Part shown: one piece after another, positions 9,055-16,081 of the stretch
Numbering within the stretch: position 1 is the stretch's first letter
Layout: every line of letters begins with the position of its first letter
DNA from: an uncultured Pelagibacteraceae bacterium
GTDB lineage: Bacteria; Pseudomonadota; Alphaproteobacteria; Pelagibacterales; Pelagibacteraceae
NCBI GenBank assembly: GCA_902532565.1
Contig: CACAIR010000005.1
Coordinates: 1-59,866, forward strand
Reading direction: 5' to 3'
Length of the DNA stretch: 59,866 nucleotides
Position numbers and translations under genes: made by a program
The notes under the pieces: generated by a model
What the model was told of the DNA's origin: nothing
Database searches by the model: none
The model's input: the letters and a program-made list of their open reading frames with translations, nothing else

Positions 9055-9765
9055 TTAAGATAATTTTGATCTTCCTCCATCTACAGCAATAATTTGGCCT
9101 GTAACCCAAGAACTTTCTTCAGTTAGTAGAAATTTTGCAAGAGAAGCAGAGTCTTTTCCTTCACCTAATCTTTTTAAAGGATGTGCTTTTGCAATACCTT
9201 CTGCGATATTAGCATTCTTTAACATTGGTGCAGCAATTTTTGATTTTGTTAAGCTTGGTGCTACACAATTAACTCTAATATTTGGGGCAAATTCTGCAGC
9301 AAGAGAAACAGTTAAACCTTCAACAGCTGCTTTTGTAGATGCTATTATTGCATGATTTGTAAATCCTCTTTGAGCAGCAACAGTCGAAAACATAACAATC
9401 GATCCATTGTTTTTTTTTAAACTCTCTTGAAAACTCTTAATCGCCTCTACTGCTGAATAGAGATTTAATTTCATACATTTTTGAAAATCTTGTTCATTAA
9501 CCATTCTAAACGGTTTTAAATCAATAGAACCAACACAATATGCTAGACCTTTAATTTCTGAAATATCAGATTTGACTTTTTGCATGAATCCTTCCTCTAG
9601 TACATCTGCTACTGTATGAGAACATTCAAGTTTTTTAGCAGCTTCACTAAGTTCATTTTCATTTCTTGCTACTAAATGAATTTCTTGTCCAGACTTTTTT
9701 AACTGTTCAGCCAAACTTGAGCCTATAGAACCTGTCGCACCAAAAATAAGATATTTTTCTGACAT
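9055..9765 (-). CDS. Short-chain dehydrogenase/reductase with an atypical active site
   Basis: The 236-residue protein has the classical SDR Rossmann motif (FGATGSIGSSLAEQL, residues 8-22), LNLYSAVEAI near 100, and the C-terminal VNCVAPSLTKS and GQIIAVDGGRS that mark classical SDRs. The active-site Ser is probable (FSTVAAQRG, S127), but the Tyr of the usual Tyr-x3-Lys is absent: the segment reads NHAIIASTKAAVEGL, so Lys145 is preceded at -4 by Ile141. A subset of SDRs has this replacement, so the protein may use another residue (His138 is near) or may not be a redox enzyme. It is the first gene of a two-gene minus-strand unit with the PQQ-type dehydrogenase. Confidence 0.85.
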   Translation of the reverse strand: MSEKYLIFGATGSIGSSLAEQLKKSGQEIHLVARNENELSEAAKKLECSHTVADVLEEGFMQKVKSDISEIKGLAYCVGSIDLKPFRMVNEQDFQKCMKLNLYSAVEAIKSFQESLKKNNGSIVMFSTVAAQRGFTNHAIIASTKAAVEGLTVSLAAEFAPNIRVNCVAPSLTKSKIAAPMLKNANIAEGIAKAHPLKRLGEGKDSASLAKFLLTEESSWVTGQIIAVDGGRSKLS

Positions 9766-9792: not shown

Positions 9793-11283
9793 ATGAAGTT
9801 ATTTTTTATACTGGGTAATCAATTATTTCCATCAAAATACTTAAACCGCTTCAAAAAAGACCACCTGTTTTTTATGGCTGAGGATTACCAATTATGTACT
9901 TATGAAAAACACCATAAACAAAAAATACTTCTTTTTTTATCATCGATGCGCTCACATGCAGAAAACCTTAAAAAAGATAAATTCAAAATAGAGTATATAA
10001 AAATTGAGGATAAAGAATTTAAAGATGATTATATTAAAAAATTAAAAAAAATAATTAATTCAAAAAATATAAAAGAAATATCAAGCTTCGAGGTTGAAGA
10101 TAAATTTTTTGAAAAAAAAATATACCAATTTCTTAAAAAAGAAAAAATTAAATGGAATGTTATCCAAACTCCAATGTTTTTAAATTCAAGAGATGAATTT
10201 AAACAATATTTATCTAAATCAAAAAAACCTTTTATGGCAACTTTTTACAAAGATATTAGAAAAAAATCAGGAATATTGATGGGATCAGATGGAAATCCAA
10301 TCGGAGGTAAATGGAGCTTTGATGAAGATAATAGAAATAAATTACCAAAAAATATTTCAATTCCAAAGTTACCAAAAATAAATGAAACCAATCATACTAA
10401 AAACTTAAAACCAATTATTGAAAAATTATTCAAAGATCATCCAGGCAAAACTGACAATTTTTGGTTCGCTACTGAATATAATGATGTCATCAAGCTTTTA
10501 AATTTTTTTATTAAAGAGAAATCAAATTTATTTGGAGATTATGAAGATGCTGTTGATCAAAAAGATAATATTTTATTTCATAGTGCACTAAGTCCATATA
10601 TTAACTTAGGCTTAATTACTCCAGAATTTATTATCAAAAAAGTTTTAGAGTTTCATAAAAATAAAAAAATAAGATTAAATTCATTAGAAGGTTACATGCG
10701 TCAGGTAATTGGTTGGAGAGAATTTATGAGAGGAATTTATCAAAGTTATTCAAACGAAATGGAAAATGGAAATTTTTTCAAACAAAATAGAAAAATGAAA
10801 AAATCTTGGTATGAGGGCACAACTGGATTACCCCCACTTGATTATGCAATTAAGAATGCTCTAAACCATGGTTGGTCTCATCACATTGAAAGATTAATGA
10901 TCTTATCTAACATTATGAATCTTTGTGAAATAAAGCCTACCATTGTTTACAAATGGTTCATGGAAATGTTTGTTGACTCTTCAGATTGGGTAATGGTGCC
11001 CAATGTTTATGGTATGGGATTGTTTAGTGATGGAGGAATTTTTGCAACCAAACCTTATATATGCGGATCAAGTTACTTTATGAAAATGATGGATTTTAAA
11101 AAAGGTGAGTGGTGTAACACAATGGATGGTCTTTATTGGAGATTTATTGATCGTAATAGAAAGTTTTTTTTGAAAAATCCAAGACTATCAATGATGGTTA
11201 GAATTTTCGATAAAATGAAAACTGAAAGAAAAAAAATGATTTTGTCAGCTGCAGATAAATTTATTAAACAAAATACAATCTAG
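9793..11283 (+). CDS. Cryptochrome/(6-4) photolyase-like flavoprotein (FeS-BCP-related family)
   Basis: The 496-residue protein belongs to the bacterial photolyase branch that includes PhrB/CryB (deoxyribodipyrimidine photolyase-related, PF04244-type). Its N-terminal alpha/beta antenna domain starts MKLFFILGNQLF. The FAD domain contains LEGYMRQVIGWREFMRGIY, WSHHIERLMILSN and DWVMVPNVYGMGLFSDGG. In PhrB-type enzymes four Cys hold a [4Fe-4S] cluster. Here a closely spaced Cys-x2-Cys followed by Cys about 13 residues later is not present; the equivalent region reads MKMMDFKKGEWCNTMDGLYW. Only Cys378, Cys424 and Cys441 lie in the C-terminal region. It likely repairs UV lesions or senses blue light, without a standard cluster. 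DUF2256, the usual partner, follows with a one-base overlap. Confidence 0.9.
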   Translation: MKLFFILGNQLFPSKYLNRFKKDHLFFMAEDYQLCTYEKHHKQKILLFLSSMRSHAENLKKDKFKIEYIKIEDKEFKDDYIKKLKKIINSKNIKEISSFEVEDKFFEKKIYQFLKKEKIKWNVIQTPMFLNSRDEFKQYLSKSKKPFMATFYKDIRKKSGILMGSDGNPIGGKWSFDEDNRNKLPKNISIPKLPKINETNHTKNLKPIIEKLFKDHPGKTDNFWFATEYNDVIKLLNFFIKEKSNLFGDYEDAVDQKDNILFHSALSPYINLGLITPEFIIKKVLEFHKNKKIRLNSLEGYMRQVIGWREFMRGIYQSYSNEMENGNFFKQNRKMKKSWYEGTTGLPPLDYAIKNALNHGWSHHIERLMILSNIMNLCEIKPTIVYKWFMEMFVDSSDWVMVPNVYGMGLFSDGGIFATKPYICGSSYFMKMMDFKKGEWCNTMDGLYWRFIDRNRKFFLKNPRLSMMVRIFDKMKTERKKMILSAADKFIKQNTI

Positions 11284-13529: not shown

Positions 13530-13751
13530 ATGAATAATAAAATTTTTGAATGGGCAGGTGTTATTACTGCAATATTATATTCGTTATTTGTAGCCTTGAA
13601 TATTGGTATAGAGTTTTTTGGTTTTAGCTTATTACTTATATCTGCAATCTTAATTGGAATTTGGGCTTATAGGGGTGGTCATAGAGGAATATTATTTTTA
13701 CAATTTTTTTATGCTACAGCTGGAATTATTGGGATGTTAAGGTGGTTTTAG
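13530..13751 (+). CDS. Small membrane protein of unknown function
   Basis: The 73-residue protein is almost entirely hydrophobic. It has about three short membrane segments (residues 6-25, 27-46 and 53-71) broken by a Gly/Arg/His turn (YRGGHRG), and ends MLRWF. The layout resembles small PnuC-like or DoxX-like membrane proteins, but I cannot name a family. It follows the Cys-rich protein by five bases. Its TAG stop overlaps the stop of the opposite photolyase-like gene (TTAG at 13748-13751). Confidence 0.7.
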   Translation: MNNKIFEWAGVITAILYSLFVALNIGIEFFGFSLLLISAILIGIWAYRGGHRGILFLQFFYATAGIIGMLRWF

Positions 13752-14887
13752 TTAAAAGTTGAAATTATTTTTGGGATATAATTTTTAAAATTAAAAAATC
13801 CTTTATTACAGTATTGCCAAGCTAATTGATCAAGTTTTCGATATAAAAAATCTATTCTTAAATTATTTGAATTTAAATAATCTAAATTTTCTCCCACGGT
13901 TGGATATAAACCATAAAAATTTTCAATATTTTTTATTTCACTTATGTCAATAACCTGACAATCAATAGATCGATCTTTTAATCTTTGCTGTTGGTCTTCT
14001 ATCAAGAGAGACTTAAATTTTTTTAATCTTTCACTAAGTTTTATAGATCTATTTTCATTTTTGTTAGAAACTAGGTAAATTTTTTTAAAGTTGTTTTCTC
14101 TAAAGTCAGTAATTTCAAACGAGAGATTATTTTCAAAAATTAAAAGATTTTTCTCTTCAATATTTTGAGGGTTATTAAAATCTTGTTTAATTATTTGGTA
14201 AGATTTTTCAGATACTTTTGGAAGAGCATTTTCATTTAATTTAATATTTTGAAACCTATTGTTAGTAAATTTTTTAATATTCCATTCATTTGCAAGGTAA
14301 TGCTTTCCTTGAGTTTGAACTCCAGCAACCCATCGCCATCCAAGAGTATTTGATGCAGCATCCCCATCATAAAGATGTTGCATAAAAAATTCTGCACCTA
14401 GTTGCCAAGGTAATTCTAAAGTAAAAATCCAAATACTAGCAAACCACATTCTGGCATGATTATGTAAATAATTATTCTCTTTCAGTTCTTTTACCCATTC
14501 ATTAAAGCACCCTATCTTCGTTTTTCCTTCTATCGCAGAAAGATAATTTTGATTATTTCTAAATTCACTTTTTATTTTGTTTAATTCAACAAGATAATCT
14601 GTCCAAACATTTGGTCTTAGCTCTAGCCAACCTTTCCAATAAGTTCGCCACAAGACCTCTTGAATGAATTTTTCGTTTTTTGAAAAAGAAAATTTATTTA
14701 GTGATTTTTGAATTACTTCTTGCTCATTAATTATCCCATGAGTAATATAAGGAGATAAACAAGAAACATTTGATCTTTTTTCTGGTCCGAAATCAAAATT
14801 TCTTAACTTTGAATATTCAGAAAGATTTTTTTCTACAAACTCATTTAATTTCTCAATGGCCTTTACCCTTGAACATCCAAACTTCAT
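13748..14887 (-). CDS. Photolyase-like FAD-binding protein with the alpha/beta domain apparently at the C terminus
   Basis: The 379-residue protein has the helical FAD-binding domain of the photolyase/cryptochrome superfamily at its N-terminal side: SCLSPYITHGIINEQE near 42, EVLWRTYWKGWLE near 78, YLHNHARMWFASIWIF near 140, and HLYDGDAASNTLGWRWVAG with QTQGKHYLANEWNI near 170-200. No N-terminal antenna domain precedes it. Instead, residues about 245-379 look like an alpha/beta domain (NLLIFENNLSFEITDF, KKIYLVSNKNENRSI) ending in an R-x-LD-x-LAW motif and GFFNFKNYIPKI. That order is reversed relative to standard photolyases. It may repair DNA or sense light. It precedes nothing else on the strand and follows argG by six bases. 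Confidence 0.82.
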   Translation of the reverse strand: MKFGCSRVKAIEKLNEFVEKNLSEYSKLRNFDFGPEKRSNVSCLSPYITHGIINEQEVIQKSLNKFSFSKNEKFIQEVLWRTYWKGWLELRPNVWTDYLVELNKIKSEFRNNQNYLSAIEGKTKIGCFNEWVKELKENNYLHNHARMWFASIWIFTLELPWQLGAEFFMQHLYDGDAASNTLGWRWVAGVQTQGKHYLANEWNIKKFTNNRFQNIKLNENALPKVSEKSYQIIKQDFNNPQNIEEKNLLIFENNLSFEITDFRENNFKKIYLVSNKNENRSIKLSERLKKFKSLLIEDQQQRLKDRSIDCQVIDISEIKNIENFYGLYPTVGENLDYLNSNNLRIDFLYRKLDQLAWQYCNKGFFNFKNYIPKIISTFN

Positions 14888-14893
14888 AATAAT

Positions 14894-16081
14894 TTATGAT
14901 CGTAATTTTTTTTTGTGATAATTAATAAATCTTTCAACATTTGATTTATTGAAGGTGTTATTTTCCTCAAATGAAACTTTTTTCATTGAGTATGCAAAAC
15001 TATTTGTATGTCTAGATTCAATTATTATATTTCCTTTATAAAGTTTTAGTTTCACTGATCCGTTAACATTTTTTTTTTTGAGGTCCACAACTTTTTGGAG
15101 TTTAGATCTTTCTTTAGAATACCAATATCCATTATAAATTAGCTCAGCATATCTAGGCATAATCTGATCTTTTTTATGCATAGTTTCTTTATCCAAAGTT
15201 ACAGATTCAATTGCTCTGTGTGCATGGATTAATAAAGTTCCTCCTGGTGTTTCATATACACCTCTAGATTTTATTCCTATAAATCTATTTTCAACCAAAT
15301 CGACTCTTCCTATTCCATTTTTTCCTGCAATATTGTTTAATTTCTCCAATAGTTTTGAAGGAGACATCTTTTTTCCATTGATTGCAAAAGGGTCACCTTT
15401 TTTAAAATTAATTGTAACAAAGGAAGGTTTGTTTGGAGCTTTTTCAGGAGAATTAGTTCTTTGAAAAATAAACTCTGGAGCTGGATTTTTTGGGTTCTCT
15501 AAGACTTTTCCCTCTGTTGAAGTATGAAACAAATTGTCATCTATTGAAAAAGGTGAAGCACCTTTTTTATCTTTAGGTATTTCTATTTTATGTTTTTTTG
15601 CATAATTTATTAAATCAGTTCTAGATTTTAGAGTCCAAATTCTCCAGGGTGCTATAACTTTTATTTTAGACCCAAAATAATGATAAGCTAACTCAAATCT
15701 TATCTGATCGTTGCCTTTACCTGTTGCACCATGAGATACAGCAAATGCTTTAAATTTTTTTGCAACTCTAATTTGATCTTTTGCAATTAGTGGCCTAGCA
15801 ATTGAAGTTCCCAACAAATATACTCCCTCGTAAATTGCATGTCCTCTTATCATTGGGTAAACATAATTTTTCACAAATTCATCTTTTAAATCTTGTATGA
15901 TAACATTTTTTACGCCAAATTTTTTTGCGTTACTTAAAATTTTTTTTCTATTAATTTTCTGACCAATATCTGCAGTGTAACAAATAACTTCAGCATTATA
16001 ATTTTCTTGAAGCCATTTCAAAATTATAGATGTGTCCAAGCCTCCAGAATAAGCTAGAACAATTTTTTTTTTTGATTTCAT
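14894..16081 (-). CDS. argG: Argininosuccinate synthase
   Basis: ArgG joins citrulline and aspartate with ATP to give argininosuccinate in arginine synthesis. The 395-residue length is normal. The PP-loop LAYSGGLDTSIILKWL lies at residues 9-24, GTSIARPLIAK and AVSHGATGKGNDQIRFE follow near 90-130, then WRIWTLKSRTDLINYAK, GIGRVDLVENRFIGIKSRG and PGGTLLIHAHRAIES. The gene begins three bases after the stop of the IalB-like gene and belongs to a minus-strand run of four genes (aldo/keto reductase, IalB-like, argG, photolyase-like). Confidence 0.97.
   Translation of the reverse strand: MKSKKKIVLAYSGGLDTSIILKWLQENYNAEVICYTADIGQKINRKKILSNAKKFGVKNVIIQDLKDEFVKNYVYPMIRGHAIYEGVYLLGTSIARPLIAKDQIRVAKKFKAFAVSHGATGKGNDQIRFELAYHYFGSKIKVIAPWRIWTLKSRTDLINYAKKHKIEIPKDKKGASPFSIDDNLFHTSTEGKVLENPKNPAPEFIFQRTNSPEKAPNKPSFVTINFKKGDPFAINGKKMSPSKLLEKLNNIAGKNGIGRVDLVENRFIGIKSRGVYETPGGTLLIHAHRAIESVTLDKETMHKKDQIMPRYAELIYNGYWYSKERSKLQKVVDLKKKNVNGSVKLKLYKGNIIIESRHTNSFAYSMKKVSFEENNTFNKSNVERFINYHKKKLRS

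Follow-up and report, generated by a model that had tools for sequence, protein, structure and literature searches.

A SAR11 photolyase-family protein with its FAD domain first: a probable member of the NewPHL class, with a two-gene counterpart in the sister clade

The DNA analysed here, referred to as the window, is a stretch of 59,866 nucleotides from a Pelagibacter (SAR11) assembly that comprises 0.87 Mb in 33 contigs and is 67% complete. Positions 13748 to 14887 of its minus strand carry an ATG-initiated frame of 379 codons, uninterrupted by internal stops, which we call P0001 and which is identified as a gene for a photolyase of the NewPHL type by its open reading frame, its Pfam match and its place in a phylogenetic tree. 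The best 80 loci matching P0001 in our named collection are all from Pelagibacteraceae and exhibit 84-92% identity. The protein comprises an N-terminal FAD-binding, catalytic domain (residues 1-215, window 14243-14887, minus strand), delimited by the match to PF03441 and by mapping of residues onto the E. coli photolyase Phr, and a C-terminal α/β domain (residues 240-379, 13751-14170, minus strand), delimited by an AlphaFold2 model of residues 235-379 and by fold and profile comparisons. The latter includes two motifs seen in an alignment of 20 proteins, R-x-LD-x-LAW (residues 350-357, 13817-13840) and GFF-x-FK (residues 363-368, 13784-13801), both encoded on the minus strand as well.

Directly upstream of the P0001 gene lies argG (14894-16081, minus), and with a gap of 6 bp and the same orientation the two genes are likely to be co-transcribed. 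A second gene of the photolyase family, a DPRP of the prokaryotic (6-4) type (9793-11283, plus), is convergent with the P0001 gene and ends 2,464 bp away from it, which agrees with the distance of about 2.5 kb given in the preliminary description of this region. We counted neighbours in the best 80 Pelagibacter loci, with flanks of up to 4 kb: 78 of them have argG upstream in the same orientation, usually at a distance of about 0.9 kb, and a DPRP gene is present downstream and in convergent orientation in 76, where the gap between the P0001-type match and the DPRP match ranges from 127 to 3,776 bp and is most commonly 1,074-1,077 bp. The pairing of the two photolyases is conserved in the closest Pelagibacter loci, while the genes between them vary; the "light/UV island" proposed for this region thus stands as far as the pair is concerned, but does not extend to the intervening genes. 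A further 51 loci, which represent 47 distinct genes, were inspected with flanks of about 1.5 kb; a DPRP gene was met in three of them, and a neighbour of the AarF/ABC1/UbiB type, seen in Ruegeria and Peteryoungia and considered as a candidate for a conserved partner, was met in none.

Several features of this neighbourhood deserve a separate mention. The segment 11284-13747 of the window is a variable insert, whose genes for a VCBS-like protein and for a protein of 229 aa find a match in 6 of the 80 loci each, within the 4 kb flanks. The DPRP protein encoded at 9793-11283 is devoid of at least three of the four Fe-S cysteines that are kept in 20/20 aligned relatives, and one of its Cys residues sits one position off the fourth; the CxxC motif is also absent from all 74 recognised Pelagibacter DPRP segments. 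The DPRP gene is adjoined by an SDR gene (window 9055-9765), whose three best distant relatives also adjoin a DPRP gene (in genomes G086, G064 and G085, the last with a broken DPRP frame).

The order of domains in P0001 is evident from comparisons of its N-terminal half. FAD_binding_7 (1.2e-17, best stretch 74-262) is the sole Pfam family matched by the protein up to E = 1, residues 8-197 align with the C-terminal halves of the best photolyases of the PDB, and the alignment with E. coli Phr begins at the FAD domain of the latter, so that the swapped order reported in the preliminary description is borne out. Pfam, the alignment with E. coli Phr and the FAD-domain tree all agree in the absence of an N-terminal antenna domain from P0001. 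Conservation of residues was counted over 20 aligned alphaproteobacterial proteins, P0001 among them; FAD_binding_7 is found in all 20, and any other Pfam family in at most one. In E. coli Phr, numbered as in the literature, residues are assigned to binding of FAD, to the pocket for cyclobutane pyrimidine dimers (CPDs) and to the Trp triad, of which W306 is the third, distal member. E274, W277, R278, N341, M345, W359, D372, D374, N378 and W382 of that enzyme correspond to E77, W80, R81, N143, M147, W161, D174, D176, N180 and W184 of P0001, identical in 20/20 proteins, N180 being the counterpart of the FAD-facing Asn, while W384 corresponds to W186, a position where Trp is kept in 19/20. The position of W306, on the other hand, is occupied by Trp in none of the 20 proteins, which exhibit other residues or gaps there, and this leaves a Trp dyad of W184 and W161, both present in 20/20. 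Residue 144 of P0001 (window 14456-14458), which adjoins the CPD-binding Asn, is His in 20/20 proteins where class I photolyases have Arg342. P0001 has Cys residues at positions 5, 43, 127, 310 and 360 only and no CxxC motif, hence the cysteines of the Fe-S cluster are absent.

The NewPHL class of photolyases was reportedly founded by Emmerich et al. 2020 (Nucleic Acids Res). Passages of later papers characterize its members by an FAD domain that comes first and is followed by a short C-terminal domain (PMC13274461, PMC8948257, PMC12083526, PMC9426592), by a Trp dyad (PMC8948257) and by a conserved FAD-facing Asn (PMC12083526); P0001 shares all these features, and in a comparison by such described traits we found none that distinguishes it. 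According to passages of PMC9426592, Phr7 of Prochlorococcus HL and LLI strains comprises an N-terminal FAD domain and a C-terminal domain, there named the Z-domain, and has no Fe-S cysteines, which makes it similar to P0001 in layout, in the absence of these cysteines and in its origin from a surface-ocean lineage, although Prochlorococcus belongs to another phylum. The same source describes Phr4/Phr5 and Phr6 of marine Synechococcus and Cyanobium, in which, as in P0001, the FAD domain comes first and the antenna domain second; however, Phr4 and Phr6 retain the Fe-S cysteines and Phr4/Phr5 are encoded by two genes, whereas P0001 is a single gene without these cysteines. Phr7 is regarded as nearest to Phr4 and Phr6 by the authors of PMC9426592, in the passages available.

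In the FAD-domain tree, 28 rows of the NewPHL type (27 distinct), including those from Ruegeria and Peteryoungia, form one clade with support of 99/99; the tree was made without the characterised NewPHL members A8LJA9, M7YZC8, Q2N8F4 and B6IPR5, class membership being judged by the published traits. Class I (98/96) and DPRP (100/100) are separate from this clade, with a long-branch warning between the two and with a root placed for drawing only. We assign P0001 to the NewPHL class, and to Phr7 within the cyanobacterial nomenclature, with high confidence. The layout is not new: homologues that share it are already described in the passages cited above, an outcome that the preliminary description had listed among those that would refute it.

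Within the genus, 23 of 37 genomes, the one that carries P0001 among them, hold a full or nearly full-length homologue and two more a fragment; among the six genus genomes with at least 90% completeness, five have a homologue. Homologues are also present in 2/24 genomes of the order's other family and in 32/397 genomes of a wider draw (E <= 1e-50, its own genome counted). Given the copies in 23 of the 37 genus genomes, the layout of P0001 is no accident of assembly. Homologues were also found on plasmids of Asticcacaulis, Novosphingobium, Peteryoungia, Niveispirillum and Ruegeria, where they cover 98-100% of the query at 32-35% identity and mostly carry just the annotation "FAD-binding domain-containing protein". 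A search of viral contigs with P0001 and with the family alignment revealed no relative, and an origin from phages was rejected, as phage records match the FAD half only, over at most 52% of the query.

These data bear on the possibility that P0001 is a class I photolyase of SAR11 that lost its antenna domain and acquired a new tail. Class I shares the catalytic residues of the FAD domain with P0001, and the best NCBIfam match of the N-terminal half is to the class I family PRK10674, though at 2.1e-22 it falls far below the cut-off. However, class I photolyases, as exemplified by E. coli Phr, have the N-terminal antenna, the Trp triad and Arg342, in place of which the NewPHL type has His, and FAD domains of the NewPHL type constitute a supported clade of their own. 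Moreover, Pelagibacter genomes hold, in addition to the P0001 type, a class I-like gene whose product has about 480 aa (one such protein is 34% identical to E. coli Phr), and the FAD-first layout is common to several alphaproteobacterial families. A truncated class I enzyme, one form of the truncated photolyase that the preliminary description gave as an option, is therefore disfavoured to the point of being scarcely credible.

As a NewPHL photolyase, P0001 would very probably act on CPDs: its FAD, photoreduced by way of the two-Trp chain of W184 and W161, would split those bound in a pocket that we predict to comprise E77, W80, N143, M147 and W186. By analogy with the described NewPHLs, the substrate is probably CPDs in single-stranded DNA, and the C-terminal domain, most likely descended from an antenna, may now serve mainly to close the FAD pocket; like the chemistry and the substrate, this sealing role is what we infer from analogy, whereas the domain order, the conserved residues, the α/β fold as predicted and the clade are shown. 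A protein of the same class by sequence could also act in SAR11 as a cryptochrome-like light sensor and not in repair, since a sensor would need no more than the same FAD domain; repair activity in SAR11 is argued from the class, and all 20 proteins have His where E. coli Phr has R342. The conservation of the CPD pocket described above, invariant at E77, W80, N143 and M147 and kept at W186 in 19/20, speaks against a sensor, as does the fact that Pfam finds no signalling domain in P0001. Passages of PMC9426592 and PMC13274461 cite repair of CPDs by the described NewPHL/Phr7 members, and a role as a sensor appears improbable.

The C-terminal domain required a different kind of analysis, as Pfam finds no match for this part of P0001 up to E = 1. 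G332, G363 and F365 are invariant in the 20 aligned proteins, D353 is kept in 19/20 and W357 in 18/20, so the two motifs first noticed in the sequence are both real and conserved. The AlphaFold2 model of residues 235-379 is of α/β type with five short strands (pLDDT 77.2, pTM 0.73), which corroborates the α/β character that had been guessed for this region and is at odds with a merely helical one; the full-length model, made with close relatives alone in the alignment, is poor (pLDDT 51.4, pTM 0.37). In a comparison by VIA-align, the top ten rows are all antenna domains from the bacterial (6-4) photolyase family (Z 8.1-6.8), representing five distinct proteins that are all matched via their N-terminal antenna domain, e.g. 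cryptochrome B of Rhodobacter (3zxs, Z 8.1, 3.4 Å over 120 residues). Unrelated structures (Can2, universal stress proteins (USP), eIF2B) follow from Z 6.8, which ties with the tenth photolyase row, and VIA-align itself warns that a Z-score under 8 may reflect merely a common arrangement. Foldseek yielded no match for the same model at E <= 0.001.

In profile comparisons, a profile of the C-terminal domain made from 75 rows (70 distinct proteins) scores 28.5 over 112 columns against DPRP antennas and 24.8 over 112 columns against class I antennas, values reached by 0/200 shuffles in both cases, while an earlier profile of 46 rows had been weak (P 0.011 against DPRP, 0.25 against class I). Among the controls, the HUP domain of argG scores 18.2 and SDR 16.6, but USP reaches 23.9 over 54 columns, hence the match to class I antennas should be taken to indicate no more than a shared HUP fold class. 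Trimming of the C-terminal alignment to its match columns lowered the score against class I to 15.9, a value reached by 28/300 shuffles and by the reversed profile (17.5), whereas the score against DPRP antennas stayed above all 300 shuffles. The method has little power, as the antennas of class I and DPRP, a known pair, score just 16.7 to 20.6 against each other in the same kind of test. In a panel of 223 single proteins, the top score belongs to an unrelated protein (29.1 over 44 columns), the medians being 18.2 (20 DPRP), 15.3 (25 class I) and 12.5 (178 others); alignments spanning 90 columns or more were obtained for 4/20 DPRP, 3/25 class I and 0/178 others, although photolyases are related to each other and such counts are not independent. 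In one comparison with class I, the GFF-x-FK motif aligned with the end of the antenna domain. Taken together, the profile and fold results support, without proving, antenna ancestry of the C-terminal domain, closest to the DPRP type.

The alternative is that an unrelated HUP/Rossmann-like domain was joined to an antenna-less FAD domain. In its favour, the Pfam match is missing and the Foldseek result weak, the USP control nearly equals the class I antennas (23.9 vs 24.8), the trimmed class I score is within reach of shuffles, and unrelated structures start at the Z-score of the tenth photolyase row. It is countered by the uniform identity of the ten best VIA-align rows, by profile matches that are in register over 112 columns with DPRP and over 128 columns with the antenna-like genes described below, beyond any of 200 shuffles, by the restriction of long panel alignments to photolyases, and by a sister clade that has the same order as two genes. 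We consider the unrelated domain unlikely, though it is the most serious of the competing explanations.

The sister group of the NewPHL-type clade (94/91, just under the mark of the tool) is formed by four short proteins that consist of the FAD domain only. With one of them as the query, 386 alphaproteobacterial genomes yielded ten matches with E-values from 7.5e-205 to 5.1e-65, followed by genes of the NewPHL type from 6.2e-41 onward. Each of the ten alphaproteobacterial FAD-only genes (L282-L291) is directly followed by a small ORF on the same strand, in most cases slightly overlapping, of 131-153 aa with the boundaries used (e.g. L287:2210-2638:+ and L129:2139-2597:+). The offset between the two is -3 in six cases, -7 in two and +15 in one; in L285 the longest start of the small ORF lies at -64, and we took an internal one instead. 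In L283 and L284 the open frame of the FAD-only gene extends upstream and, counted from its first start, comprises 451 and 562 codons, but Pfam finds FAD_binding_7 alone in both (the L284 gene was scanned as L128), thus the extra part is probably not coding. CxxC is kept in 3/10 FAD-only proteins.

The free-standing small proteins are antenna-like. They score 59.6 (P 2.5e-9, 135 columns) against an alignment of class I antennas and 31.5 over 128 columns, i.e. nearly their whole length, against the NewPHL C-terminal profile, a value reached by 0/200 shuffles; the scores are 24.7 over 88 columns against DPRP antennas and 31.3 over 37 columns against USP. Of five members scanned against Pfam, two gave a match to PF00875 below its cut-off (E 0.013 and 0.1), and a sequence search of the PDB with one member found nothing better than E 0.099. 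When one member was searched alone in 241 genomes, it was found in eight, always beside an FAD-only gene. The split pairs resemble phr4/phr5 of marine Synechococcus, as these are described in passages of PMC9426592.

Since the sister clade keeps an FAD gene followed by an antenna-like gene in the same order, NewPHL looks like a fusion of such a split pair. Together with the ten best structural rows, this arrangement leads us to favour, modestly, a relocated antenna over a new domain as the origin of the C-terminal part of P0001; of the options left open in the preliminary description, the rearrangement fits better. Short photolyase-like (SPL) proteins, reportedly treated by Xu et al. 2021, have been regarded as the antenna-less forms from which the whole family descends. 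The antenna-like genes are possibly the missing half of these proteins, and we found no mention of a link between SPL proteins and a partner gene in the passages of the photolyase literature cited above and related ones, though it may be reported elsewhere. We propose tentatively, as a possibility of real but less than even weight, that NewPHL arose by fusion of an older two-gene photolyase, that SPLs are half of a two-subunit enzyme and that the alphaproteobacterial pairs are working heterodimers.

P0001 brings SAR11, an abundant lineage of the ocean, into the NewPHL class, and the adjacent genes of the same order in the sister group may explain how the reversed order of domains arose. The split pairs also bear on the question whether antenna-less short photolyases really root the family: if the fusion took place as proposed, SPLs would represent one subunit of a two-part enzyme instead of a primitive state.
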